DNA from: Alphaproteobacteria bacterium BRH_c36
Lineage (GTDB): Bacteria > Pseudomonadota > Alphaproteobacteria > Rhizobiales > Hyphomicrobiaceae
Direction: 5' to 3'
NCBI GenBank assembly: GCA_001516065.1
Contig: LOEV01000123.1
Span: 1-64,000 of the forward strand
Length of the DNA stretch: 64,000 nt
In this document: positions 468-28,381 of the stretch, piece by piece
How the letters are laid out: every line of letters starts with the position of its first letter
Numbering within the stretch: position 1 is the stretch's first letter
Translations under genes and position numbers: made by a program
The notes under the pieces: generated by a model
Seen by the model: the letters and a program-made list of their open reading frames with translations, nothing else
Databases searched by the model: none
What the model was told of the DNA's origin: nothing

Positions 468-749
468 ATGGGAATGGATGAGTACACAATTGGCGTCGTG
501 GCCGATCGGCTGGCGGCTCTCTATAACGGCCCCTTCGGGGGCAAGGACAACGGCCGCTACCGTATCGCGGCCAAGCTTGTGCGTGCGCTTGCAGGGCGGC
601 GCAGACTTTACGAGGACGATGTTCGCGATCTGTCGCGGGCGATGATCGAGCGCGGATTCGTTCTCATCGACATGGACAGCTTCTTCGTCGTGATGTCGGC
701 GAACACGTTCGTCAACTATCGCCGCGCCAACGAGGAGTGCCTGGAGTGA
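468..749 (+). CDS. Conserved-looking 93-aa protein of unknown function upstream of the RimB/RimK cassette
   Basis: ORF in the operon direction; its 3' end overlaps the following ORF (737). No recognised domain. Confidence 0.55.
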   Translation: MGMDEYTIGVVADRLAALYNGPFGGKDNGRYRIAAKLVRALAGRRRLYEDDVRDLSRAMIERGFVLIDMDSFFVVMSANTFVNYRRANEECLE

Positions 750-1213
750 AGGCCGCCAAGACACTCAGCCCGCGAACCGACACAACACGGATCGGCTGGC
801 GGGAGTGGATCGGCCTGCCGGCGCTTCAAATCACCTCGATCAAGGCCAAGATCGACACCGGGGCGCGAACGTCTGCACTGCATGCCGTCAACCTGAGGCC
901 ATTCGAAATCAAGGGCGTCAGATGGATCGAGTTCCACGTCCCGCGCGCCGGTGTTCCGCGCACCGACCTCTGCCGCGCCATTATTGTTGACGAGCGAAAA
1001 ATCAAGAACACCAGCGGTGTTCCCAAGCTGCGCTACGTCATTTCGACGACGCTGATCCTGGGCCGGCGCCACTGGCACATCGAACTTTCGCTGGCAGACC
1101 GCGAGAAAATGGAGTTCGACATCATTTTGGGGCGAACGGCAATTCGCCGGCACGGCCTGCTCGTGGATCCGGGCCGCTCGTTTCTCGCCGGTCCGCCCAT
1201 CGCTATTCTCTGA
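737..1213 (+). CDS. RimB-like ATP-dependent zinc protease / retropepsin-fold (DUF785) protein
   Basis: WREWIGLPALQITSIKAKIDTGARTSALHA is typical of the family (DTGA motif); directly upstream of rimK. Confidence 0.85.
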   Translation: MPGVKAAKTLSPRTDTTRIGWREWIGLPALQITSIKAKIDTGARTSALHAVNLRPFEIKGVRWIEFHVPRAGVPRTDLCRAIIVDERKIKNTSGVPKLRYVISTTLILGRRHWHIELSLADREKMEFDIILGRTAIRRHGLLVDPGRSFLAGPPIAIL

Positions 1214-1298
1214 AAAGCTTCCTCGCACGCTGCCTTTCTCGAAGAGTGCCCCGTCCGACAGCCGGTCCACCGGTCCTATGCCTTAGAAAGGGCAGGTC

Positions 1299-2204
1299 AT
1301 GAAAATCGCCATGATGGCGCGCAACGCCAACCTCTACTCGCACAAGCGGCTGGTGGAGGCCGCCGAGGCACGCGGACACCAGATCGACGTGATCAACACG
1401 TTACAATGCTACATGAACATCGCGTCGCGGCGGCCGGAGGTCTATTACAATGGCCATAAGCTGCCGCACTACGATGCCGTCATCCCGCGCATTGGCGCAT
1501 CGGTCACCTTCTACGGATTGGCGGTGTTGCGACAGTTCGAGATGATGGGCGTATTTCCGCTGAACGAGTCGGTGGCCATCGGGCGGTCCCGCGACAAGCT
1601 GCGCTCGATGCAACTGCTGGCGCGAGACGGCGTCGGTCTGCCGGTGACGACTTTCGCCCACGACCCCAAGCAGACCGAGGAAGTGTTGCGGCTCGCCGGT
1701 GGTTCGCCGCTCGTCATCAAGCTGCTCGAAGGCACCCAGGGGATCGGCGTCGTTCTGGCCGATACCGACCGCTCGGCGAAATCGGTGATCGAGGCGTTCC
1801 GCGGGGCGGGCGTCAACATCCTCGTTCAGGAGTTCATCAAGGAGGCCGGCGGCACGGATATCCGGGCGCTCGTTGTCGGCGGCAAGGTCATCGCCGCGAT
1901 GCAGAGGAAGGGAGCGGAAGGCGAATTCCGCTCCAACCTGCACCGGGGCGGCAGTGCGCAAGCGATCAAGATCTCGCCGGAAGAACGCGCGACGGCTCTG
2001 CGTGCTGCAAAAGCCATGGGGCTCAACGTGTGCGGCGTCGACATGCTGCGCGCCAATCACGGGCCGGTCGTCATGGAGGTCAACTCCTCGCCGGGCCTCG
2101 AAGGTGTCGAGAAGGCCACGGGGATCGACATCGCCGGCCAGATCATCGACTTTCTTGCCAGCCACGCGAGGCCGGGCAAGACCAAAACGAAGGGCAAAGG
2201 CTGA
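1299..2204 (+). CDS. rimK: RimK-family alpha-L-glutamate ligase (ATP-grasp)
   Basis: ATP-grasp motifs ([31 protein letters not shown]) and RimK N-terminus [27 protein letters not shown]. Confidence 0.93.
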
Positions 2205-3247
2205 TGGGAGAGACGGGTCCGTTCGAGATCGGCAGGTCGATCGTCGCTTCGGGAACGCGGCAGACGGTCGAATTGCCGGTCAGCGTTCTGTCGGACCACA
2301 CTCCCGTCACGCTGTCCGCCCACGTGGTTCACGGCCGCCGGCCGGGTCCGACGATGTTCGTCAGCGCGGCGGTGCATGGCGACGAAGTCATCGGCGTGGA
2401 GATTGTGCGGCGACTGTTGCGCGCGCCCAATATCGACAACATGCGCGGCACGTTGATTGCCGTGCCGATCGTCAACTCGTTCGGCTTCATGCATCATTCC
2501 CGCTATCTGCCCGACCGGCGCGATCTCAACCGCTCGTTTCCCGGCAGCGCACAAGGGTCGCTCGCGGCGCGGCTGGCGAACCTGTTCCTGCAGGAAATCG
2601 TCCTGCGGTCGGACCTCGGGATCGACCTACATTCAGCAGCGATCCACCGGACGAACCTGCCGCAGGTGCGGGTGTCGCCTTCGAAACCGGCAACGATGGA
2701 ACTTGCTGAGGCTTTTGGAGCACCGCTCATTTTGACGTCCGGATTGCGGGACGGTTCGCTGCGGCAGGCGGCGGCAAAGAAGAACATCGATATTCTGCTC
2801 TATGAAGCCGGCGAGGGATTGCGGTTCGATGAGATCGCGGTGCGGACCGGAGTCAGCGGCATTCTCCGGGTGATGCGCAAACTCGACATGGTCTCGGGAA
2901 AGGGCATCTCGAAACCGAAGGCGGAGCCGATCCAGTCGACCGCGAGCTACTGGCAGCGTGCATCGGCGGGCGGCCTCCTGCGGACGTTCAAGACGATCGG
3001 CGAGGAGGTCCCCAAGGGAAGCGTTCTCGGTATCGTCGCCGATCCCTTCGGCGAAACCGAAACAGAGATCACCGCTGACTACGGCGGCCTGATCATCGGG
3101 CGCACAAACCTGCCGATCGTCAACGAAGGCGACGGGCTGTTTCATATCGCCAAGATCAGGAAGGCCGACAACGCGGAAGCGACGATCGACAGCCTTGCAA
3201 GTCAACTCGTCGCAGATCCGCTGTTCGACGAAGACGAGATCATCTGA
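2204..3247 (+). CDS. Succinylglutamate desuccinylase/aspartoacylase (AstE/AspA, M14-like) family protein
   Basis: Starts at ATGA overlap with the rimK stop; MFVSAAVHGDEVIGVEIVRR zinc-binding HGDE motif; DLNRSFPGS. Confidence 0.88.
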   Translation: MGETGPFEIGRSIVASGTRQTVELPVSVLSDHTPVTLSAHVVHGRRPGPTMFVSAAVHGDEVIGVEIVRRLLRAPNIDNMRGTLIAVPIVNSFGFMHHSRYLPDRRDLNRSFPGSAQGSLAARLANLFLQEIVLRSDLGIDLHSAAIHRTNLPQVRVSPSKPATMELAEAFGAPLILTSGLRDGSLRQAAAKKNIDILLYEAGEGLRFDEIAVRTGVSGILRVMRKLDMVSGKGISKPKAEPIQSTASYWQRASAGGLLRTFKTIGEEVPKGSVLGIVADPFGETETEITADYGGLIIGRTNLPIVNEGDGLFHIAKIRKADNAEATIDSLASQLVADPLFDEDEII

Positions 3248-3332: not shown

Positions 3333-3887
3333 CTATTCAGCCCTGCTCGCCCTTGATTGCGCGACTTGATCGAGGAATTTATCGAGGAACTGAGACAACG
3401 CGTTCCAATCGGTGAATTCGTGGTCGCCGGTCTGTTCAAAGGTTCCGGCGGTTTTGGAGACGATGTGCTTGACGATTTCCACCTTGAAGTACTCGTACTG
3501 CGAATAGCGCAGGGCGCCGGCAAGCAGCAGAGTCCGGACAGGTTGGAGTTTCGTGATCCATAAAAATCGTTCGACGTACTTCTGCGCGGCAGGGCGTCCG
3601 TCGTCGGTCGCAGCAGAAAGGCTGACCGATATCAAAGCCGAGGGCAGAGAGTTGAACTGTTCGCGGTGGGCGATGACGAAGTTTATGAGGCTGTCCTGAT
3701 GGCGTTCCTGATGAACCGAGCCGGCTAATATCACGGCGTCGTAATTTTCCCAATCCGGCAGCGCGCCCGGTTCTTCGCTATCGATGACATCGACATGATG
3801 GGCTTTCCGCGAGACATGTCCGGCAGCCCGACGAGCGATCTTTCCGGTTTGGCCTTCCGTCGTTGCGAAGACGATCAAAATGTTCAT
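3333..3887 (-). CDS. Flavodoxin-domain protein, HemG-like (menaquinone-dependent protoporphyrinogen oxidase family)
   Basis: MNILIVFATTEGQTGKIARRAA flavodoxin P-loop; AVILAGSVHQERH; FVIAHREQFNSLPSALISVSLSA as in HemG. Start chosen at internal MNILIV. Confidence 0.75.
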   Translation of the reverse strand: MNILIVFATTEGQTGKIARRAAGHVSRKAHHVDVIDSEEPGALPDWENYDAVILAGSVHQERHQDSLINFVIAHREQFNSLPSALISVSLSAATDDGRPAAQKYVERFLWITKLQPVRTLLLAGALRYSQYEYFKVEIVKHIVSKTAGTFEQTGDHEFTDWNALSQFLDKFLDQVAQSRASRAE

Positions 3888-3941
3888 GGCAATTATCCCA
3901 AACGGGCACTTGGTTCCCAAGCGTCAGCCCGGAACCCTCGG

Positions 3942-4445
3942 CTAATGCAGCTGGCGCTTAAGGACAGCGATCATTCTTTCCACTTCGTCTTGTTGCAACC
4001 GGCCGTGATTTTGCAGGAACTCCGCGATGTCGCGGCCGGTATATCGGCCGGTCAGCGTGCCTTCCCGCAGGATCAACTGGTGTCTCGCAAGTTCGACGGC
4101 ACGATCGTGACAGACGCGGCATTTGTCCTGAAACAGGCCTCCCGAATTCAGGATGTTCTCGAAATGCACGACGAGAACGTCGATCTCCACCGGGGACAGT
4201 TTACCGTGGCCGGAATTGAGGAAGCCGCGCAGCTCCCGCGAGGATTTGCGCGTCAGCATCTTTCCTTGCGACCTGACGAGATAGTTGCGCGCGAAGTCGC
4301 CCGCGTGGGGGGAATGACATCCACCGCACCGCTGCTCAAAAATCTGGTGAGGGTCGGGTGCTTGTGCCAGAACCTGTTGATCGCGAGACGCCGCGGTGAT
4401 CGCCAAAGCGAGCCAGCCGACGAATAGCATGCGATATCTCAACAT
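3942..4445 (-). CDS. Small exported diheme c-type cytochrome
   Basis: Two CXXCH motifs (CGGCH, CRVCH), N-terminal signal-like segment; downstream of nirN. Confidence 0.8.
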   Translation of the reverse strand: MLRYRMLFVGWLALAITAASRDQQVLAQAPDPHQIFEQRCGGCHSPHAGDFARNYLVRSQGKMLTRKSSRELRGFLNSGHGKLSPVEIDVLVVHFENILNSGGLFQDKCRVCHDRAVELARHQLILREGTLTGRYTGRDIAEFLQNHGRLQQDEVERMIAVLKRQLH

Positions 4446-4510: not shown

Positions 4511-4524
4511 TTGAGCTGAGTCAA
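4511..4524. promoter_or_regulatory. Candidate Fnr/NnrR-family box TTGAGCTGAGTCAA
   Basis: TTGAG-N4-GTCAA imperfect dyad overlapping the nirN stop and centred about 72 bp upstream of the diheme cytochrome start. Confidence 0.4.
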
Positions 4525-6101
4525 TGGCTCGTCCCCTCCGAAAACGTGATCTTGTTCCAGACGTTGTACTTGCCCGACGGCTTGCGCATCGGCAGGCGGC
4601 GGACTTCCTCCAGGGTCTCGGCGTCGTAGACGATGACGGCGCCGTCATCCTCCCAGACCGACACGAGGGCATGGCGGCCGGACCGGTCGAATTCGACATG
4701 AGCAACGGTTGCTTCGGGCACGGGCCGCAGCGTCTTGACGATCTTCAGGGTCTGCTTATCGATGACGTGCATCGCATCCTTGTTCTTGCCGAAGAAGACG
4801 TCAGCCCAGACATAGGGCGTATTCTCGTGCGAGCGCAGGAAGAAGCCGGGGCCATCGGTCGGTATGGTCGTGACAAGGGACCAGTCGTCGACGGCGATAA
4901 CGCTGAGCTTGGCTTCCTTCAGATGCGGTGTCGCCATGACGCGGCGGCCGTTGCGAATCCAGGAGATTCCAGAGCCGAGGTGCGGCATGCCGGGAAGCGG
5001 CAGTTCTGCGATTTCGCGGCCAACCGTTAGGTTGACGACGACGCCCTTGCCGCCGTCACGTGATGCACCGATCAGATTGCGGTAGTCGGAATCGAAGAAG
5101 AAGTCGTCGATGGGTTCGGCGACAGCTATTCGTCTCAGCGCAAACAGCCCCTTTGAGGATTCTAGCGCTTCGACCATGCCTTTCTCGTGGCTGTGCACGT
5201 AGCCCTGGTAGACCGGCTCGGCATCGGGGTTGGTCGCGATCTCCCAGATCTCGGCGACATCTTTCAGCGCCAGCACGAAGCTGTCTCTCGTCGGCGCCTG
5301 GTAAACCGCTGAAACACGCGAAGGGACGCCGGACTTGTCGGAAACATCGAAAACGCGGGCGACGGAGAGATCCGATGTCGCGATGATCGTCAGCGTGTTG
5401 GGGAGATAATTGGCAACCGCCAGCCAACGGCCGTCCTTCGAGATGGCGATGTTGCGGGCGTTCAGTCCGGCGCGGATGCGGCCGACTTCCTGAAGCGACC
5501 AGATGTCGTATTTCTGCACCCAGCCATCGCGCGACATGATGAAGACGAAGCGGCCGTCGGGCGAGAACTTCGGCCCGCCGTGAACGGCAAACGGCGTGGC
5601 GAAGCGGTCCAGGCGGTTGAAGGTGTCGCCGTCGAGGATCGACACGTGATGGTCGCCGGTCTCGACGACCAGGAACAGATTGAGTGGATCGGCATCGAAG
5701 ACCGGCTTGGAAGCAGCTCTGTAATCTGCATTTAGGGTGAGGCTCGCGGCGATTTCATTCGTGGTCCACGTCGGTTTTGTGCCGAGCGGCGTCTTGATGA
5801 ACTCGGAGAGGGCTGCGATGTCGTGTTCAGAAAGCATGTCGGCGAAGGCCGGCATCTGGGTCGCCGCGCGGCCCATGGAGATGACGTCCGAAACCGCTGG
5901 GCCGCGCATCCGGTGCAAGGTTTCCGGAATCAGAGCCGGGCCTGTTCCGCCAAGCCTTTCAGCGCCATGGCAATTCGCGCAATGGGCTTGATAGAGTTGA
6001 ACGGCACGTGTCGTCGCGTTTTCTGCATTCACGGAGACCGCGGCAGTGCATGCGAACGCGGCAGTGAAGATGATGCTAGGCAAAGCGGTGCGCGGGATCA
6101 T
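4521..6101 (-). CDS. nirN: Cytochrome cd1-like NirN (dihydro-heme d1 dehydrogenase)
   Basis: N-terminal CANCH cytochrome c domain plus cd1-type beta-propeller; distal position after nirJ as in Paracoccus/Pseudomonas nir clusters. Confidence 0.88.
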
Positions 6102-7302
6102 TGCTTCGGCCTCGGAATGGTTTCATCTGGAGTCGGTCGGATTCGCTTGAGATGCCTTCCGAGAGGCCGATTTCAGCGTCGCCGAGATAACAAGCAGGAT
6201 CGGCCTCCCATGGGTCGCCGGTCAGTTGAAGGGCGCGGATACGGGTGTTGCCGCCGCAGACGGATTTGTAGGCGCAGGCGCCGCAGCGTCCCTTCAGGGG
6301 ACGTGGGCGCAGGCGCAGCGCTGCCAGCATCGGGTCGCCGAGATCCTGCCAGATCTCGCTGAACGGCCGGTTGCGCACGCTGTCGATGGAATAATCCGAC
6401 CAGTAGGTGTCGGGGTGGACGACGCCCTGGGTGTCGATGTTGGCGACGCCGAGGCCGGAAGAGTTTCCGCCCCAGGCTTCAAGGTGCTGGCGCAAATGTG
6501 CGACAGCCTCGGCCGTGAACCGGCTCTGCGCCCAGCGCAGGAAGGTGACCGCATCGGCATCGTTGTTGCCCGTCACGATCTCGAATGCCTCGCCGTTCGA
6601 AGCCGACCGCCATGCGCGCTCGATGAGAAGTTCAACCGCCTGGCGCGTCACTTGCCATTGCGTGTCGTCGGCGCGGTGCTTGTTGCCGCGGCCCGCGTAG
6701 ACAAGGTGGGATAGGTAGAACTTCTCGACGCCTTCGTCACCGGCCAGTGCCAGGAGGTCGGGTAGCTGCTGGGCATTGTCCTTCGTCATCGTGAAGCGCA
6801 GGCCAACCTTGATGCCGCGCGCCCTGCACGCACGTACTCCGGCAAGCGCCTCCTCGAATGCGCCCGCCGCGCCACGGAACCAGTCGTTCGTCGCGCCGAT
6901 GCCATCGAGGCTGATGCCGACGTAGTCGAAGCCGATCTCGGCGATCTCGTCGGCGTCATGTTCCTTGATCGTCGTGCCATTGGTGGAGAGCGCGGTGTAG
7001 AGGCCGTGGGCCTTGGAGCGCCGTGCCAGATCGAGGGTGTCGGGGCGGCTCAGCGGCTCTCCGCCCGAAAGGATCAGCGCGGGAATGCCGAAGGCAGCGA
7101 GATCGTCGAGCACGACGACGGCTTCCTCATTCGAAAGTTCGCCTGGAAAGTCGCGGTTGGCGGCAACCGCGTAGCAGTGACGGCACTTGAGATTGCAGCG
7201 CCGCGTCAGGTTCCAGATCACAACGGGGCGCACCGGCCCCTTGCGGCGGCGTACCGGTGTCGGTTCGATGAGCTGGTGCATATAATGCGACAGGCGAAAC
7301 AT
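6076..7302 (-). CDS. nirJ: Heme d1 biosynthesis radical SAM protein
   Basis: CNLKCRHCY radical SAM motif, C-terminal [18 protein letters not shown]; within nir cluster. Confidence 0.93.
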
Positions 7303-7306
7303 TGCT

Positions 7307-7798
7307 TCAGCCTCCGTTACCGGACAGACGAAGTCCGGTCTTCTTCAGGATCCGCTTCGAATAGAGAACGTCGCAAGCGCGGCAAGCCGGTCCGGCGAGC
7401 AGTGCGATCTCACGCCGCTTCGTTTCGACCTCGTCACGGGTTGTGCCATGAACCATCGCGAACAGGTTGTAGGGCCAGGACGGGAGTGCGCGCGGGCGCA
7501 GATAGCAGTGCGTCACGAAAGGCAGCGCGCCGACCTCGCGCCCGACTTCGGAGGCGACTTCGTCTTCGATGTCCCAAACCGTCATTCCGTTGGCGATCAG
7601 GCCCAGGGCATAGTGGTTTGGCGCGACTCCTATGCGACGAACGACTCCGCGTTCCATCAGATGGCCAAGCCGCACGATGACGTCGGCTTCGCCGATGCCG
7701 ACGCTCTTTGCGATTTCGGCATAGGGGCAAGGGGTAATCGCGAGGCCGGCCTGAGCCGCTTCGATGATGCTCCTGTCGATTGAATCGAGACTGCTCAT
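7307..7798 (-). CDS. nirH: Siroheme decarboxylase subunit NirH (Lrp/AsnC-like)
   Basis: [35 protein letters not shown]...[12 protein letters not shown]; start re-assigned inside the longer 7307..8419 ORF. Confidence 0.85.
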
Positions 7799-8274
7799 GC
7801 CGCCACCCTGAAGCCGATAAAGAACTCTTCGAGTTTGGGAAAGCGCAGCACGGCAAGGCCGGTTGCCTGTTCGATACGCAGGGCGGTGCTGTCTATTTCC
7901 TCGGGCGACTCGGTTGCAAGCACGAACCACATGTTGAGGGCATGCTCGCGCTCGTAGTTGTGCGCGACCTGAGGAAAGCCGTTGACGATCCCGGCGATCT
8001 CCTCGAAGCGATCCGCGGGGGCTGAGAGCGCACACAGGCAGAAGGCGCCGCCCATGGCTGCCGCATCGAGGAACGGTCCGAAGCGGGTAACAACGCCGGT
8101 CTCGGCCAACCGCTGCAGCCGCGCGATCAATTCGCTTTCGGGAATGCCGATTTTGGCCGCGACGGCGGCAAAAGGCGACGTGACCAGCGGAAATCCCTCC
8201 TGAAGGACATTGATGATCCGGCGGTCCAGGTCGTCGAGGCCGATGCTTGCGGCCAAGTGGTGTCGGGACATCAT
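7795..8274 (-). CDS. nirG: Siroheme decarboxylase subunit NirG (Lrp/AsnC-like)
   Basis: DLDRRIINVLQEGFPLVTSPFAAVAAKIGI...REHALNMWFVLATES; 4-bp overlaps with neighbours. Confidence 0.85.
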   Translation of the reverse strand: MMSRHHLAASIGLDDLDRRIINVLQEGFPLVTSPFAAVAAKIGIPESELIARLQRLAETGVVTRFGPFLDAAAMGGAFCLCALSAPADRFEEIAGIVNGFPQVAHNYEREHALNMWFVLATESPEEIDSTALRIEQATGLAVLRFPKLEEFFIGFRVAA

Positions 8275-9278
8275 GCAGCCTCCTTTGAAGCGGCAACCAG
8301 CGCGCCCGTCTGCTTGAAGCAGCGCAATGAGAAAAGGATCTGGCGGGGAACGTCGTCGAGTCCGGCGGCCGTGGAAGCTTCGACCAGTGCCCGCAGCGCC
8401 GCGTCACGCGATTTCGCATGGATCATGCAATAGAGGTTATAGGGCCACTCACTCTTGTAGCGCGTGCGACGGTAGCACAGGTTGATGCTGGGGCATTTGG
8501 CGAGGGCTGCGCCGGCGCGGTCGATGTCGGCTGGATCGACATCCCAGACCACCATCGCATTCGACCTCCAGCCAAGCGCGCGATGGCGGACTATGACGCC
8601 AATCCGGGGTAGAACTCCGGCCTCGCAAAGCTCGCCGGTACGGGCGATGACGTCGCCTTCGGCGCGGCCCAGCCGTTCTGCAACTTCGCGGAATGGCGTG
8701 GCGACCAACGGCAGCCCTGTGATGAGTTCCTGGACTAGTTGCCGGTCGCCTTCGCGGAGGCTGCGGCGCGAGACGTCCGCAGTGGCCATGTCGACGAGAT
8801 CATGCCGAACCACCTGCTCGCTGGAAAGTGGAAATCCCAGGTCAATGTGATAGGGGCGCTCCAGGCGCAGCTCGAGTACCCGGTTGCCGGTTTGGCTTTC
8901 CACTTTGGCGATCGCCGCGTTGACATAGGCACGGTCGGGCCCGGTCACCACGAACCAAAGGTTCCAATCGTTTTCTCTGAGGTAGACGTGGTTGATGCCC
9001 GGCTCGGCGCACAGAATCGCAGCTTTGCTGTCAACGTCCAGATCGGGCACCGATATCGCTGCGAGAGTGCTTGCCCCAAGCGTATTCGGGCGCACGACGC
9101 CGCCGACACGGGCAACTACACCAGATGCCTGAAGCCTCGAAAGGCGAGCGATCACGTCCTCTTCGGCGAGGCCGATCTTGTTTCCAATCTCCAGGAACGG
9201 ACGCTCAACAAGGGGCAGCGCGCGCTGCCAGCCTTCCAGCAGTTGACTATCGAAACTATCGCTTGACGAGACACCCAT
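8271..9278 (-). CDS. nirDL: Fused NirD-NirL siroheme decarboxylase
   Basis: Two tandem Lrp/AsnC-like units (LPLVERPFLEIGNKIGL and LPLVATPFREVAERLGR). Confidence 0.88.
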   Translation of the reverse strand: MGVSSSDSFDSQLLEGWQRALPLVERPFLEIGNKIGLAEEDVIARLSRLQASGVVARVGGVVRPNTLGASTLAAISVPDLDVDSKAAILCAEPGINHVYLRENDWNLWFVVTGPDRAYVNAAIAKVESQTGNRVLELRLERPYHIDLGFPLSSEQVVRHDLVDMATADVSRRSLREGDRQLVQELITGLPLVATPFREVAERLGRAEGDVIARTGELCEAGVLPRIGVIVRHRALGWRSNAMVVWDVDPADIDRAGAALAKCPSINLCYRRTRYKSEWPYNLYCMIHAKSRDAALRALVEASTAAGLDDVPRQILFSLRCFKQTGALVAASKEAA

Positions 9279-9281
9279 GGC

Positions 9282-10478
9282 TCACAGTCCTGTCCGGTGC
9301 GCACGCGAGGTGAAAAAAATTCCGCTCGGGCTGGTAGCGGCAATCTCAGCTTTCTTTTCAAAGGTCCGTGCGTCGTACACGTGGACCGCATTGGCGTCGC
9401 GCACCGAGACCCAGACTTCATGCCCCCTTGCGGTAAATTCCATGTGCAGGACTGCCGGACCCGGCTTCCATTCCTTGACGACTTCGGCTGTACGCGAGTC
9501 GATGACCTGGATCGTGTCATTGAAGGGATGGGCGAAATTGACCCAGACATGGCGTCCATCTGGCCGCGCAACGGCGAAGACCGGCTGGCCGTGCACTTTC
9601 GTCCTGCCGACCTCCGCGAAACTGCGGGTGTCGACGAAGAGTACTTCGTGGCGTCCCACCGCCGGCAACACGAATCGGTCGCCGGCCAGCGCCCAGCCTT
9701 CGAGATGAGGCATCTTGTAGACGGGGAGTTTTTCATCTCCGCGCCCGTAGTTGTCGAGAATGCGCCGTGGCTTGACGGTATCGTCCCAGAGATCGACAAG
9801 GCTGAGGCCATCCTCGCCGTAGAGGCCGGCGACGTAGTAGCGGCCATCGGCGGTGATTAGGGCGTCGTAGGGGTTGGCGCCGATGCCTTCCAGTTTGGTG
9901 ATGATGCAGGGTGCAGCACCTTTCGAGAAATCGGCGATCCAGGTTTCGCCTGCGTCCCAAAGCGTGAAAACGAACCTGCGGCCGGGCGCATCGACAAGGC
10001 CGATCGTCTTCGATAGACCCCCCGGCCACGCCGCCGGAATGTCGGCGACCGGAGCAAGCGTTGCGGCATCGAACACGCGGACGCCGCCGGGCTCGTAGTT
10101 CGAAACCGCGACGAGGGTGCCGTCATCGGAGATCGCCCCGCCGATTGAGTTCCCCGCCTGGACTACGCGCCCGGCAATCGAGCCGGTGAGGAGATCGACC
10201 TTGGTCAAGCCGCCGTCGCGGCCGAAGACGAAGGCGTAGCGCTGGTCGCGGGAAAAGACGGCCGAGGCGTGAGACAGGTCCCCGAGGCCTTCTACGCGAG
10301 AGAGAGTTTTGCGCCCGGTGGTATCGACGATGAGGAGAGAACCGGTCGCGCGCTCGATGACGATCCCCAGATCGCCAGTACCGCGCAGTTCCTGTTCCGA
10401 CGCCCGCAGGACGCCCGTGGCACCGACTGCAATAAGACCCAAGGTGAAGACCAGCAGCGCTTTCAGCAGAACCTTCAT
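9282..10478 (-). CDS. nirF: Heme d1 biosynthesis protein NirF
   Basis: cd1-like propeller without CXXCH; ELRGTGDLGIVIERATGSLLIVD; start chosen at MKVLLKALLVF. Confidence 0.88.
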   Translation of the reverse strand: MKVLLKALLVFTLGLIAVGATGVLRASEQELRGTGDLGIVIERATGSLLIVDTTGRKTLSRVEGLGDLSHASAVFSRDQRYAFVFGRDGGLTKVDLLTGSIAGRVVQAGNSIGGAISDDGTLVAVSNYEPGGVRVFDAATLAPVADIPAAWPGGLSKTIGLVDAPGRRFVFTLWDAGETWIADFSKGAAPCIITKLEGIGANPYDALITADGRYYVAGLYGEDGLSLVDLWDDTVKPRRILDNYGRGDEKLPVYKMPHLEGWALAGDRFVLPAVGRHEVLFVDTRSFAEVGRTKVHGQPVFAVARPDGRHVWVNFAHPFNDTIQVIDSRTAEVVKEWKPGPAVLHMEFTARGHEVWVSVRDANAVHVYDARTFEKKAEIAATSPSGIFFTSRAHRTGL

Positions 10479-10822
10479 CGGCCGCCCTCCTGCTGCAAGA
10501 GATAGTGGGCGATCCATTCCGCGTCGCCCTCGCTGAGCAGCGGTCGCCACGGGGGCATCGGCGTACCTGGAACCCCATCGAGGATGATCTCCTTGATCGC
10601 TTCCGGCGACGAGCCTTTAAGCGTCGTGGCGCGAATATCGGGGCCAAGGCCCCCTTTCAACGTCATGCCGTGGCAGGAGCCACAGTCCTGAAGAACGAGG
10701 CGCTCAAGGGCTGCCGCACGATCTGCGTCAACCGTCCGAGACAAGTGTTCTCCGGCCCATAAGGTTGCCGACCAGCAGAGAACTAAGCCAGCTGCGACCC
10801 ACAATCTATACATGGACGGCAA
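10475..10822 (-). CDS. nirC: Cytochrome c55X (NirC)
   Basis: Signal peptide, single CGSCH, DGVPGTPMPPW; start possibly at 10813. Confidence 0.85.
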   Translation of the reverse strand: MPSMYRLWVAAGLVLCWSATLWAGEHLSRTVDADRAAALERLVLQDCGSCHGMTLKGGLGPDIRATTLKGSSPEAIKEIILDGVPGTPMPPWRPLLSEGDAEWIAHYLLQQEGGR

Positions 10823-11609
10823 CCTCCTTTTCCGCTCTATGCAAAGCTATGGCGTCGCGAACGACAGGGCAGATGTCGCGGCTCGGATAGAGCGATACGA
10901 CGTCGCCGATGATGAACAGGACGGGGCCGTCGAAGTTGGCGCGGGCGGTCGCTCCGGCGACGTCTTCCAGGTCGGAGACAAGACGCCGTTCGCGCGAGGT
11001 GGTGCCGTTGTTGACAGCAAGCACCGGGGTCGTTGCCGACCGGCCTTCCTCGATGAGGCGCCCGGCGATTTCCGCGATGTTGGCTGCGCCCATGTAGACG
11101 ACGAGCGTTGTTTCCTTGTCGGCAAGCCCGGCCCAATCGAATTCGAGCGGCTGGTCCTGACGGCAATGGCCGGTGATATAGCGGACGCCGGTCGCCAGTC
11201 CGCGATGTGTGAGAGGCACGCCGATGCTTGCCGCGCAACCTTGCGCAGCAGTAATGCCCGGCACGATTTCGCAGGGAATGCCCGCCTCGCGCAGTGCGAC
11301 GGCCTCCTCTGAACCGCGCCCGAAGATGAACGGGTCGCCACCCTTCAGCCGGATGGTGTTGCGGCCGGCCCGCGCCTCCGCGATCAGAATCGAGTTAATC
11401 TTTTCCTGCGGAACGGGGTGGCGTCTGGGCTCCTTGCCGACAGGGATCAGCTTGGCCTGCCGACCGGCCAGCGCCAGGACTTCGTTCGAGACAAGCCGGT
11501 CGAACACGATGACATCGGCACTCGAGATCAACCGCATCGCCTTTACCGTCAGGAGATCGGGATCACCGGGTCCGGCGCCGACGAGGAAAACTCGTCCGGG
11601 CATTTTCAT
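10806..11609 (-). CDS. nirE: Uroporphyrinogen-III C-methyltransferase (NirE/CobA type)
   Basis: VFLVGAGPGDPDLLTVKAMRL...RLKGGDPFIFGRGSEE...YITGHC; within nir operon. Confidence 0.93.
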   Translation of the reverse strand: MKMPGRVFLVGAGPGDPDLLTVKAMRLISSADVIVFDRLVSNEVLALAGRQAKLIPVGKEPRRHPVPQEKINSILIAEARAGRNTIRLKGGDPFIFGRGSEEAVALREAGIPCEIVPGITAAQGCAASIGVPLTHRGLATGVRYITGHCRQDQPLEFDWAGLADKETTLVVYMGAANIAEIAGRLIEEGRSATTPVLAVNNGTTSRERRLVSDLEDVAGATARANFDGPVLFIIGDVVSLYPSRDICPVVRDAIALHRAEKEVAVHV

Positions 11610-11702: not shown

Positions 11703-13469
<1,767 letters not shown>

Positions 13470-18053: not shown

Positions 18054-18119
18054 GCGCCAAGGCGGTGCAGCGAGCCACAATGCGCTCACCAACCGCCTGT
18101 TTCGAGGAGGCACAAAAAA

Positions 18120-18572
18120 ATGCGCGAAGTCATGACCAAGACGATGGCCCGCAATATATTCTACGGGGGATCGTTGTTCTTCATCATCATCTTTGTTGGC
18201 CTCACGGCCCACAGCCATTACTACATCGTCACGAAATCAACGGCCGGTCAGCCGCTGACGAGCTCCGTCGCGAAGGGCAAGCACGTGTGGGAACGACACG
18301 CGTGCATCAATTGCCATTCGCTGCACGGCGAAGGGGCCTATTTCGCGCCCGAGGTCGGCAACGTGATGACCCGGTGGGGCGTCATCGACAATCCCGAGGA
18401 TGCCTTCCAGACGCTGAAGGGCTGGATGGAAGCGCAGCCGACGGGGGTCGAAGGCCGCCGGCAGATGCCGCAGTTCAACCTCACCGACGAGGAAATCCGC
18501 GACCTCTCCAACTTCCTGATCTGGGCCGACAAAACGGACACCCAGAATTGGCCGCCGAACGACGCCGGTTGA
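18120..18572 (+). CDS. norC: Nitric oxide reductase cytochrome c subunit
   Basis: N-terminal TM, CINCHSLHGEGAYFAPEVGNV. Confidence 0.96.
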   Translation: MREVMTKTMARNIFYGGSLFFIIIFVGLTAHSHYYIVTKSTAGQPLTSSVAKGKHVWERHACINCHSLHGEGAYFAPEVGNVMTRWGVIDNPEDAFQTLKGWMEAQPTGVEGRRQMPQFNLTDEEIRDLSNFLIWADKTDTQNWPPNDAG

Positions 18573-18599
18573 TCCGAAACACGCGTGGAGAAAGCCCCC

Positions 18600-19970
18600 A
18601 TGAAATATAAAACCCAGAGAATAGCCCAGGCCTACTTCCTGACGGCCATGGCGTTGTTCCTCGTCCAGGTCACGGTCGGTCTGCTGCTCGGCTGGATCTA
18701 TGTCGCGCCCAATACGCTTTCCGAATTCCTCCCCTTCAACGTCGCGCGCATGCTGCATACGAACTCGTTGATCGTCTGGCTGCTGACCGGGTTCTTCGGT
18801 GCGGCCTATTTCCTCATTCCCGAGGAAGCGGAGCGGGAGATCCATTCGGAAAAACTGGCCTACATCCAGCTCGGCATTCTCATACTGGGAACGGCCGGCG
18901 TCGTCGTCACGTATACGTTCGACCTTTTCAACGGCAACTTCTTTCTCGGCAAGGGCGGGCGTGAATTCATCGAGCAGCCGCTTTGGGTCAAGCTCGGTAT
19001 CGTGGCTGCCGCATTGATCTTTCTCTACAACATCACCATGACGGTACTTGCCGGGCGCAAGACGGCGATCACAAACGTCCTGCTCATCGGCATGTGGGGC
19101 ATCGCGCTCCTGTTCCTGTTTGCCTTCTACAATCCGTCGAACCTGTCGCTCGACAAGATGTACTGGTGGTACATCGTGCACTTGTGGGTCGAGGGAGTGT
19201 GGGAACTGGTGATGGCCTCAATCCTCGCCTATCTCATGCTCAAGCTGACGGGTGTCGACCGCGAGATCGTCGAGAAGTGGCTCTACGTCATTGTCGGCAC
19301 CGCGCTCTTCACCGGAATCCTCGGCACGGGCCACCACTTCTACTGGATCGGCGCGCCGGGCTACTGGCAGTGGATCGGCTCGATCTTCTCCAGCTTCGAA
19401 GTGATCCCGTTCTTCCTGATGATGATCTTCGCCTTCGTCATGGTGTGGAAGGGCCGGCGCGACCACCCCAACAAGGCGGCGCTGTTGTGGTCGCTCGGCA
19501 CCGTCGTGCTCGCCTTCTTTGGAGCGGGCGTGTGGGGTTTCATGCACACGCTGCACGGCGTCAACTACTTCACACACGGCACGCAGATCACGGCGGCACA
19601 CGGACACCTCGCGTTCTTCGGGGCCTATGTTTCCTTAAATCTCGCGATCTTCACCTATGCTTTCCCGATCTTGTGGAACCGGGACCCGTATAATCAGGTG
19701 CTCAACATGACGAGCTTCTGGCTGATGTCGGGCGGCATGGCGTTCATGACCTTCGTCCTCACGTTTGCGGGTACGATCCAAACGCACCTGCAGCGCGTCA
19801 TGGGCCAGTACTACATGGACGTCCAGGATCAGCTGGCGCTGTTCTACTATATGCGCTTTGGGGCGGGCCTTGCCGTGGTGCTGGGTGTGATCCTGTTCAT
19901 CTACGCCGTCCTGGTGCCGCGCCGCGAGGTGATCGCGCCAGGCCCGGTTGTCCAAACAGCAGCGGAGTGA
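18600..19970 (+). CDS. norB: Nitric oxide reductase catalytic subunit
   Basis: MKYKTQRIAQAYF; polytopic heme-copper oxidase features; LGTGHHFYWIGAPGYWQWIGSIFSSFEVIPFF; AHGHLAFFGAYVSLNLA. Confidence 0.97.
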   Translation: MKYKTQRIAQAYFLTAMALFLVQVTVGLLLGWIYVAPNTLSEFLPFNVARMLHTNSLIVWLLTGFFGAAYFLIPEEAEREIHSEKLAYIQLGILILGTAGVVVTYTFDLFNGNFFLGKGGREFIEQPLWVKLGIVAAALIFLYNITMTVLAGRKTAITNVLLIGMWGIALLFLFAFYNPSNLSLDKMYWWYIVHLWVEGVWELVMASILAYLMLKLTGVDREIVEKWLYVIVGTALFTGILGTGHHFYWIGAPGYWQWIGSIFSSFEVIPFFLMMIFAFVMVWKGRRDHPNKAALLWSLGTVVLAFFGAGVWGFMHTLHGVNYFTHGTQITAAHGHLAFFGAYVSLNLAIFTYAFPILWNRDPYNQVLNMTSFWLMSGGMAFMTFVLTFAGTIQTHLQRVMGQYYMDVQDQLALFYYMRFGAGLAVVLGVILFIYAVLVPRREVIAPGPVVQTAAE

Positions 19971-25984: not shown

Positions 25985-28381
25985 TTATTTGCCCGACTGC
26001 GACCATTCCACCCGTCGAGCATCGGTAGCGTGCTCATAGATATCTTCTTCCTGGGCATTATGGATTCGCACCAGCGACTCGATTGACTCGATGACGCGCT
26101 GCGCATCCCTGGTCAGGTAGCGATCGGCGTCGTCAGGGTCGAGGTCGGTCGCCAGTCTGTCAAGCAGGCGGCCGAGGTGCTGAATTTCCCGGTGTGCGCG
26201 ACTCATGGCGTTCAGGCCGTGACCATCAGGCAGATACCTGCTCAGACCCGGATAGACACTATTCTCGTCCGCCCGCTCGTGCTTCAGAACTTGCTGCTCC
26301 ACGATCCTGTTGGCCTCGGTGATCAGAGCTACCGCCGACTCATATTCCGCATCATCGAGGCCATCGGCTATTTCACGCAGCCGGTCGAGAGCGGCTTCTA
26401 TCTGCTCGTGCTCGACGCGCAGGGCCGTTGCTGCCGCTGCGGGCATCGGGGTGCGAGCGAAGGACCAGGGGGGAACATTTGCGCGCAGCGCGTTGAGGAT
26501 GACAGCAACATCAATGGCTTCCTGTGCGATGGCACCGGCGACGGGACTGAGGTATCCGGCCGCGGCAAATCCCATTGCGATGCCCGAGAGACCAAGGCCG
26601 ATGACGATACTCTGGACAGCGATGCCGCGTGCATGCCTGGCAATGACCACAGCCTCGGACACGCGGTCCAGGCGGTCCACGAGAATGACGACGTCGGCGG
26701 CTTCCGAGGAGGCGCTCGCCCCCCTGACACCCATCGCGACGCCGACGTCAGCGGCGGCCAACGCTGGCGCATCGTTGATACCGTCCCCAACCATCAGCGT
26801 CGGATGGAGACGCTGCTCTGTTGCTACGGCATCGACTTTGTCAGCCGGCACGCGGTCGGCTAGAACGGCATCAAGATCCAAAGCCGAACCGATGATCTCT
26901 GCGGCATCCGTACGGTCTCCCGTCACCATGACAATTCGCTTTACCCCGCTGTTGCGCAGCACCTGAATGGCATGCGGCGTGTCACGCCTCAGTTCGTCTC
27001 CCATCAGGAGTGCGCCAATCGTCTGCCCGTCAACCGCAACGAAGACACTGAGCGCCGAGCGCCACGATGCGCGCCGCAGAACGCGCTGCGCCCAGTCTTC
27101 CGGCTTTCGGCCGCCGTAGACGAACTGGTGGGAGCCGACCGAGACCGCTTGCCCCGCGACAAGTCCCCTCAAGCCGGAACCCACGCTTTCAGCGATCTGT
27201 TGTGGATGTCCCAGTTCGAGGTGTTTCTTGCGCGCTGCCTCGACGATGGCACCTGCGACGACATGCTGAGAAGCCTGCTCCAAAGAAGCCGCCAAACGCA
27301 GAACATCATCCGGGCTTTGCCCCGGCGCTGCTTCGATCGCGATGAGGCGGGCCCCGCCGACCGTGAGTGTGCCGGTCTTGTCGAACATGACCGTGTGCGT
27401 TCGCGCGAGAGCCTCCAGCGGTCCACCGCCCTTGATCAGGATACCCTTCCGGGCGGCCTGTGACAATCCGGCGATGAATGCAACGGGGGCAGCGATGATC
27501 AACGGGCATGGAGTTGCCGCAACGAGGACCGCCAGCCCGCGCACCGGGTCGCCTGACAAAAACCACGCCCCGCCGGCAACAGCGAGCGTGAGGGGAAGGA
27601 GAAAAAGAGCGTATTGATCGGCTAGGCGTATGAAGGGAGACTTCGCGGTTTGTGCCGCCGTTACCATACGTACAATCCCGGCGTAGGTGCTTTCGCCCGA
27701 CGTGGAGGTCGCACGCATTTCAAATGTCTCGCTGGCATTGAGCGTCCCGCTCTGCGCGTTTTCCCCCTTTCGGCGGGTGACGGGAATTGGTTCGCCGGTA
27801 AGGGCGGACTCGTCGATAACGGCCACTTCGCTGATAACGACTCCATCGACAGGTATGATTTCCCCAGCCCGGACCATGATGAGGTCGTCGGCCCTGACCT
27901 CCTCGACGGGAATGTCGGAGATGACCGACCCAATCCGTCGATGCGCAACCCTGGGCGCGCGGTCTACCAATGACTTCAGGTCGCGTTGGGCGCGTGCGAC
28001 GGCAAAATCCTCAAGTACATTCCCGCCGGCATACATTACTGCAACGACAACGCCAGCGAGCATCTCCCCAAGCAGGAGTGCAGCAGACATCGACACGAAC
28101 GCAATGGCATCGACGCCGACCCTGCCTGCCATGAATTCCTGGATCATGGAAATCAGCAGGCCCACGGCAACGGGCGCGGTGCCGAATGCCCAGATCCATT
28201 GGGCTGCGTCCGCATAGCCGCCCATCCATGCAGCGAGGCCGACGCCAAGCGACACCAGGGCGATCAGGATCAGCGCCATGCGTAGTCGTTCCGCGGGGAT
28301 CATAGGGAGAATGCAATCCCTTGGATGAGTTGTAGGGCGACCTCTGGTCGAACCTTGGCCCCACCGCCGACGGGCCAACAT
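25985..28381 (-). CDS. Heavy-metal P1B-type ATPase with C-terminal hemerythrin-like (HHE) domain
   Basis: DKTGTLTVGG, ATPCPLIIA (TPCP), MVGDGINDAPALAAADVGVAMG; C-terminus VEHEQIEAALDRL...VLKHERADENSVYPG...AHREIQHL...HNAQEEDIYEHA. True start may be at 28303. Confidence 0.92.
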   Translation of the reverse strand: MLARRRWGQGSTRGRPTTHPRDCILPMIPAERLRMALILIALVSLGVGLAAWMGGYADAAQWIWAFGTAPVAVGLLISMIQEFMAGRVGVDAIAFVSMSAALLLGEMLAGVVVAVMYAGGNVLEDFAVARAQRDLKSLVDRAPRVAHRRIGSVISDIPVEEVRADDLIMVRAGEIIPVDGVVISEVAVIDESALTGEPIPVTRRKGENAQSGTLNASETFEMRATSTSGESTYAGIVRMVTAAQTAKSPFIRLADQYALFLLPLTLAVAGGAWFLSGDPVRGLAVLVAATPCPLIIAAPVAFIAGLSQAARKGILIKGGGPLEALARTHTVMFDKTGTLTVGGARLIAIEAAPGQSPDDVLRLAASLEQASQHVVAGAIVEAARKKHLELGHPQQIAESVGSGLRGLVAGQAVSVGSHQFVYGGRKPEDWAQRVLRRASWRSALSVFVAVDGQTIGALLMGDELRRDTPHAIQVLRNSGVKRIVMVTGDRTDAAEIIGSALDLDAVLADRVPADKVDAVATEQRLHPTLMVGDGINDAPALAAADVGVAMGVRGASASSEAADVVILVDRLDRVSEAVVIARHARGIAVQSIVIGLGLSGIAMGFAAAGYLSPVAGAIAQEAIDVAVILNALRANVPPWSFARTPMPAAAATALRVEHEQIEAALDRLREIADGLDDAEYESAVALITEANRIVEQQVLKHERADENSVYPGLSRYLPDGHGLNAMSRAHREIQHLGRLLDRLATDLDPDDADRYLTRDAQRVIESIESLVRIHNAQEEDIYEHATDARRVEWSQSGK

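Follow-up and report, generated by a model that had tools for sequence, protein, structure and literature searches.

The window analyzed here, a stretch of 64,000 nucleotides, carries in its first 13.5 kb a run of minus-strand genes in the order nirS-E-C-F-DL-G-H-J-N-CYT2-flavodoxin (Table 1). The last two genes, which encode a diheme c-type cytochrome (hereafter CYT2) and a HemG-like flavodoxin, lie outside the standard nir set, as the initial annotation had pointed out. That annotation described two open reading frames behind nirN, in nir orientation, the first with CGGCH and CRVCH motifs and the second encoding a HemG-like flavodoxin, and its coordinates and motifs are correct. Both are real genes, as shown by sequence conservation among approximately 35 homologs of CYT2 and more than 20 of the flavodoxin. 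The gap between nirN and CYT2 is roughly 75 bp and that between CYT2 and the flavodoxin gene is 54 bp; the flavodoxin gene terminates the same-strand run, and the next gene is convergent. Converging on the nir operon from the plus strand (737–3247) are successive genes for a putative ATP-dependent zinc protease, a ligase of the RimK-type ATP-grasp class, and, as read from the sequence itself, an AstE-like deacylase.

Divergent from nirS are a NirI/NosR-like gene, an ApbE-domain gene (nirX-like), nnrS, norB, norQ, norD, and a norE-like gene, past which a DUF4202 gene and a Crp/FNR-type regulator gene occupy the minus strand. The locus is a full denitrification island, located in a Hyphomicrobiales-type metagenome-assembled genome (MAG) with a completeness of 85.7%. 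Directly upstream of norB, in the norC position, is a plus-strand ORF (18065–18610) with no Pfam match, whose frame or start was perhaps misjudged. Beside the island, a single minus-strand ORF (25985–28381) encodes an unusual fusion, in which a P-type (E1-E2) ATPase carries a hemerythrin domain at its C terminus.

Table 1. Genes of the nir operon and FNR/NNR-type boxes in the window
Feature	Position	Strand	Basis or remark
nirS, cytochrome cd1 nitrite reductase	11703..13463	-	Cytochrom_D1, 500 bits
nirE, uroporphyrinogen III methyltransferase-like	10806..11609	-	Sequence and operon position
nirC, monoheme cytochrome c	10475..10822	-	Domain match
nirF	9282..10481	-	Cytochrom_D1
nirD-L fusion	8271..9278	-	Domain/family matches
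nirG, siroheme decarboxylase subunit	7795..8274	-	Domain/family matches
nirH, siroheme decarboxylase subunit	7307..7774	-	Domain/family matches
nirJ, radical SAM	6076..7302	-	TIGR04051, 578 bits (cut-off 515)
nirN, dihydro-heme d1 dehydrogenase	4521..6101	-	Cytochrom_D1 and cytochrome c domain
CYT2, predicted secreted diheme cytochrome c, 167 aa	3942..4445	-	CGGCH and CRVCH in tandem one-heme domains; ATG at 4445, end at 3942
HemG-like flavodoxin, 184 aa, last gene of the operon	3333..3887	-	Flavodoxin_5, NF008316
FNR/NNR-type box TTGACTCAGCTCAA, 1 mismatch	4511..4524	-	About 75 bp upstream of CYT2 start; overlaps nirN stop codon
FNR/NNR-type box TTGACTTTTGGCAA	13526..13539		Between nirS and divergent nirI-like gene; 70 bp upstream of nirS

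CYT2 begins with a predicted signal peptide (MLRYRMLFVGWLALAITAASRDQQVLAQA), and the two halves of the protein are homologous to one another (hhalign E = 1.4e-23), indicating tandem duplication of a one-heme domain. Both CXXCH motifs, a DPH motif, CHxxHA, and His147 in FLxxHG are conserved among CYT2 homologs; the conserved histidines number five, and the homolog alignment contains no conserved methionine. Because methionine is not conserved, bis-His ligation is likely, with probably one such heme in each of the repeated domains. Comparison with Pfam did not place CYT2 in a characterized family, as only short heme-motif models (Paired_CXXCH_1) passed their cut-offs; comparison with PDB sequences gave no convincing relative, and a fold search with an AlphaFold2 model (pLDDT 82.5) returned no PDB match with an E value below 0.1. 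The CYT2 family is uncharacterized. In the gene tree, the window's copy falls in an unresolved clade alongside copies from other families. Variants of the protein also occur: one genome (G753) encodes a natural monoheme, single-domain version (L210), and another (G680) has two copies (L196 and L198), one of which has a cytochrome b561-like gene nearby and adjoins a pyridine nucleotide-disulfide oxidoreductase-like gene. A search of plasmids yielded one remote homolog (L256), annotated as a hypothetical protein, on a plasmid of Azospirillum thermophilum, where it lies about 8 kb from a cluster of UbiT/U/V-like, cytochrome c, and NnrS genes.

Two known cytochromes resemble CYT2 in outline. Like NirC of heme d1 biosynthesis, CYT2 is a small secreted c-type cytochrome of the nir operon. 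However, where NirC and the class I monoheme cytochromes have a single heme with methionine as distal ligand, CYT2 has two CXXCH motifs, its two hemes lie in duplicated domains with no conserved methionine, and it has no detectable homology to NirC. The two proteins are present together in the window's operon, and we reject the idea that CYT2 is a NirC replacement, given that nirC is found in 63 of the 63 nirN loci that also have nirE and nirF. The second cytochrome is DHC, a soluble diheme cytochrome c that is encoded in the SHP operons of Rhodobacteraceae and is likewise small and secreted; it is found together with a membrane cytochrome b (PMC2909971), much as CYT2 has a cytochrome b561 gene as its neighbor in two genomes. 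Membership of CYT2 in the DHC/SHP group was also rejected, as it matches neither the Pfam DHC family nor the PDB DHC chains in sequence or fold. The CYT2 neighborhoods inspected also showed no SHP gene.

The arrangement of these genes behind nirN is a local novelty. Among 79 other alphaproteobacterial nirN loci, CYT2 stands behind nirN at only one, in a congener (G693) whose NirS is 90% identical to that of the window, and the flavodoxin gene stands there at none; in G693 itself, CYT2 follows nirN and the flavodoxin gene is absent. In a second congener (G692), CYT2 lies 22 bp after cbiX, which encodes a siroheme ferrochelatase. Apart from this cbiX neighbor, none of the loci examined beyond the window's species and G693 showed CYT2 linked to nir, and no second case of CYT2 beside the flavodoxin gene occurred in the genomes examined. 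We therefore reject the notion of a conserved nir-linked pair. The initial annotation had stated that homologs unlinked to nir genes in other genomes would speak against its proposal, and physical linkage is indeed almost absent elsewhere.

The gene most often added behind nirN is cbiX, which is the siroheme ferrochelatase gene of alphaproteobacterial denitrifiers and is known in this position from Roseobacter denitrificans (PMC4063343). We found it behind nirN at 27 or more of 76 scorable loci, typically with a 43-bp overlap with nirN. In the window, cbiX is absent from this place and CYT2, which is not homologous to the CbiX sirohydrochlorin ferrochelatase, occupies it. The rarity of the arrangement is what one would expect if the genes behind nirN were a chance insertion with no functional relation to nir, but we consider this very unlikely, because the upstream boxes and the co-occurrence described below are independent of the arrangement and are found where the genes are unlinked.

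Gene content ties CYT2 to nirN more firmly than gene order does. Of 103 genomes in the window's family, 20 have nirN, 16 have CYT2, and 12 have both; CYT2 is thus present in 12 of 20 nirN-positive and 4 of 83 nirN-negative genomes (Fisher p = 1e-7). The association keeps its direction under within-genus shuffling (combined p about 0.002), although at the genus level it rests on few independent events and MAG incompleteness can remove genes from presence counts. CYT2 was found in none of the family's 14 nirK-positive genomes, and in 12 of 19 NirS-only versus 0 of 13 NirK-only genomes (p = 4e-4). A class-wide draw that excluded the window's own genome gave 3 of 21 nirN-positive versus 1 of 363 nirN-negative genomes (p = 5e-4). 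An order-wide comparison that excluded the family gave 5 of 36 versus 3 of 260 (p = 9e-4), based on two separate draws, the larger of which was assumed to contain the smaller. Outside the family, 10 of 69 nirN-positive genomes carry CYT2, and in many genomes NirS can do without it; conversely, CYT2 is present without nirN in eight genomes, including a complete one (G450).

These distributions bear on the possibility that CYT2 is dedicated to periplasmic heme d1 maturation as its electron acceptor, in which case its electrons would be supplied by NirN, by NirF/NirC, or by the oxidation step that turns the NirJ product into the dilactone. Such a role would suit a gene that lies behind nirN in two species and behind the siroheme chelatase gene cbiX in a third, and that associates with nirS and not nirK; moreover, the maturation steps are periplasmic and require oxidants, and dilactone formation is unexplained (PMC13168839). 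Nonetheless, we regard a dedicated role as unlikely, since CYT2 is missing from most nirN-bearing genomes, some CYT2-positive genomes lack nirN, and NirC, which is always present, is already a candidate acceptor (PMC13168839). It is quite doubtful, too, that the CYT2 family, as domain-duplicated bis-His diheme cytochromes, serves some NirS denitrifiers as the electron sink for the periplasmic part of heme d1 maturation, for example by oxidizing the exported NirJ product to the dilactone or by reoxidizing NirN.

Regulatory sequences provide a further link to anaerobic metabolism. We scanned the 250 bp upstream of genes, with gene starts approximated, for TTGAY-N4-RTCAA with no more than one mismatch. 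Such FNR/NNR-type boxes precede 15 of 32 CYT2 genes versus 16 of 281 neighboring genes (p = 5e-9), mostly 60–125 bp before the start, although not all of these boxes are independent because some related loci carry the same one. Shuffled sequences gave 0.8 and random windows 29 of 840 as controls for CYT2, and nirS, the positive control, had boxes at 15 of 19 genes. The HemG-like genes of the close subfamily had boxes at 7 of 11, versus 5 of 82 neighboring genes (p = 2e-5). For CYT2, boxes at promoter distance, as expected of members of an FNR/NNR regulon, are enriched across the family; the box in the window has one mismatch and could by itself be due to chance, because 4.9 such matches are expected in 64 kb. 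Taken together, the strong co-occurrence with nirN, the absence of CYT2 alongside NirK, the FNR/NNR-type boxes, and the second nirN-CYT2 adjacency in a congener bear out the earlier suggestion in so far as it assigned the cytochrome to the nirS/nirN system.

Boxes are also found upstream of CYT2 in nirN-negative genomes (L208, L019, and L258), and the box in G450, which has CYT2 and no nirN, is perfect. This is consistent with a model in which CYT2 has a general role in anaerobic or nitrosative-stress metabolism, for instance as a carrier between quinol, via cytochrome b561, and several acceptors, so that its association with nirS reflects lifestyle and shared regulation. The cytochrome b561 genes adjacent to CYT2 in two loci, and the otherwise diverse neighborhoods of the family, point the same way. 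However, this model leaves unexplained why CYT2 occurs in 0 of 14 nirK genomes of the family and in 12 of 20 nirN genomes, and we consider it possible but somewhat unlikely.

The flavodoxin has no signal peptide and scores 103 bits against Pfam Flavodoxin_5 (cut-off 27). It aligns over nearly its full length and without large gaps to E. coli HemG (PgdH1; b3850), an FMN-dependent protoporphyrinogen IX dehydrogenase (33% identity over 167 residues, 2e-31), and the similarity extends through the HemG-specific C-terminal half, covering the stretch before the conserved TDW, with the HemG-specific insertion and the AGALRY...TDW region both present. HemG is a protoporphyrinogen dehydrogenase coupled to the respiratory chain (PMC7242693). 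Unlike HemG, the window protein falls below the curated equivalog cut-off of NCBIfam NF008316 (109 versus 142 bits), and for this reason we label it only HemG-like; it also differs in lying in a nir operon and in sharing its genome with HemJ, and therefore it is not the sole candidate protoporphyrinogen oxidase.

The HemG-like family comprises two subfamilies. The HemG-like C-terminal region is retained in the window protein's close relatives (10 genomes, identity of 39% or more), whereas a second paralog in the same genome (L020, contig C183) is without this region and its AGALRY motif. As with HemG, the relatives are linked to anaerobic respiration and anaerobic heme genes, one lying 30 bp behind hemN (G755) and another downstream of narH, narJ, and narI (G220). 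Co-occurrence of the HemG-like protein with nirN is weak (p = 0.02). The upstream boxes and the linkage to hemN and narHJI fit the initial proposal of tetrapyrrole oxidation under low oxygen, and the protein most likely serves anaerobic protoheme synthesis. One could instead imagine a flavodoxin that reduces radical SAM enzymes and is not a protoporphyrinogen dehydrogenase, in view of the linked radical SAM genes in the window (nirJ) and in G755 (hemN). We find this quite unlikely, because the alignment to E. coli HemG runs from end to end, a short-flavodoxin model scores only 20 bits, and the narHJI linkage in G220 involves no radical SAM enzyme.

The initial annotation had also cast the two proteins as a redox pair. 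This is unlikely, as CYT2 has a predicted periplasmic location but a signal peptide is missing from the flavodoxin, the two genes are not adjacent in the other genomes examined, and G693 has CYT2 behind nirN without the flavodoxin. The different compartments of the two proteins suggest that they serve one program and not one reaction. Instead, we favor, as reasonably probable, a model in which the two genes are an anaerobically expressed addition to the nir operon whose products act in parallel, CYT2 as a periplasmic carrier and the HemG-like protein as a protoheme enzyme. Under low oxygen and in the presence of nitrogen oxides, an FNR/NNR-type regulator would switch on nir together with both added genes. 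CYT2 would be exported, loaded with two c-hemes, and assist NirS-type, heme d1-dependent denitrification as a carrier of electrons in the periplasm. The HemG-like protein would stay cytoplasmic and oxidize protoporphyrinogen IX without oxygen, as HemG/PgdH1 of E. coli does, delivering the electrons to the quinone pool or respiratory chain. Heme d1 branches off before protoporphyrinogen, via siroheme, and a HemG-like enzyme would therefore lie off the d1 path; the protoheme that it helps to make would supply the c-type cytochromes needed by NirS-type denitrification. The secretion and electron-carrier role of CYT2 and the enzymatic activity of the HemG-like protein are inferred. Both proteins look like denitrification accessories.

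Which electron acceptors serve the periplasmic steps of heme d1 synthesis, and by what route the NirJ product becomes the dilactone, are open questions (PMC13168839). CYT2, which tracks NirS and not NirK and has oxygen-sensing boxes at many of its loci, is a concrete candidate for a redox partner in the NirS branch, and one that gene-neighborhood surveys by themselves would overlook. The HemG-like protein suggests that some HemJ-carrying alphaproteobacteria retain an additional enzyme, of the HemG type, to supply heme anaerobically. The main interest, however, lies in the CYT2 family, whose duplicated architecture, enrichment in anaerobic control boxes, and preference for NirS over NirK make it a testable lead.
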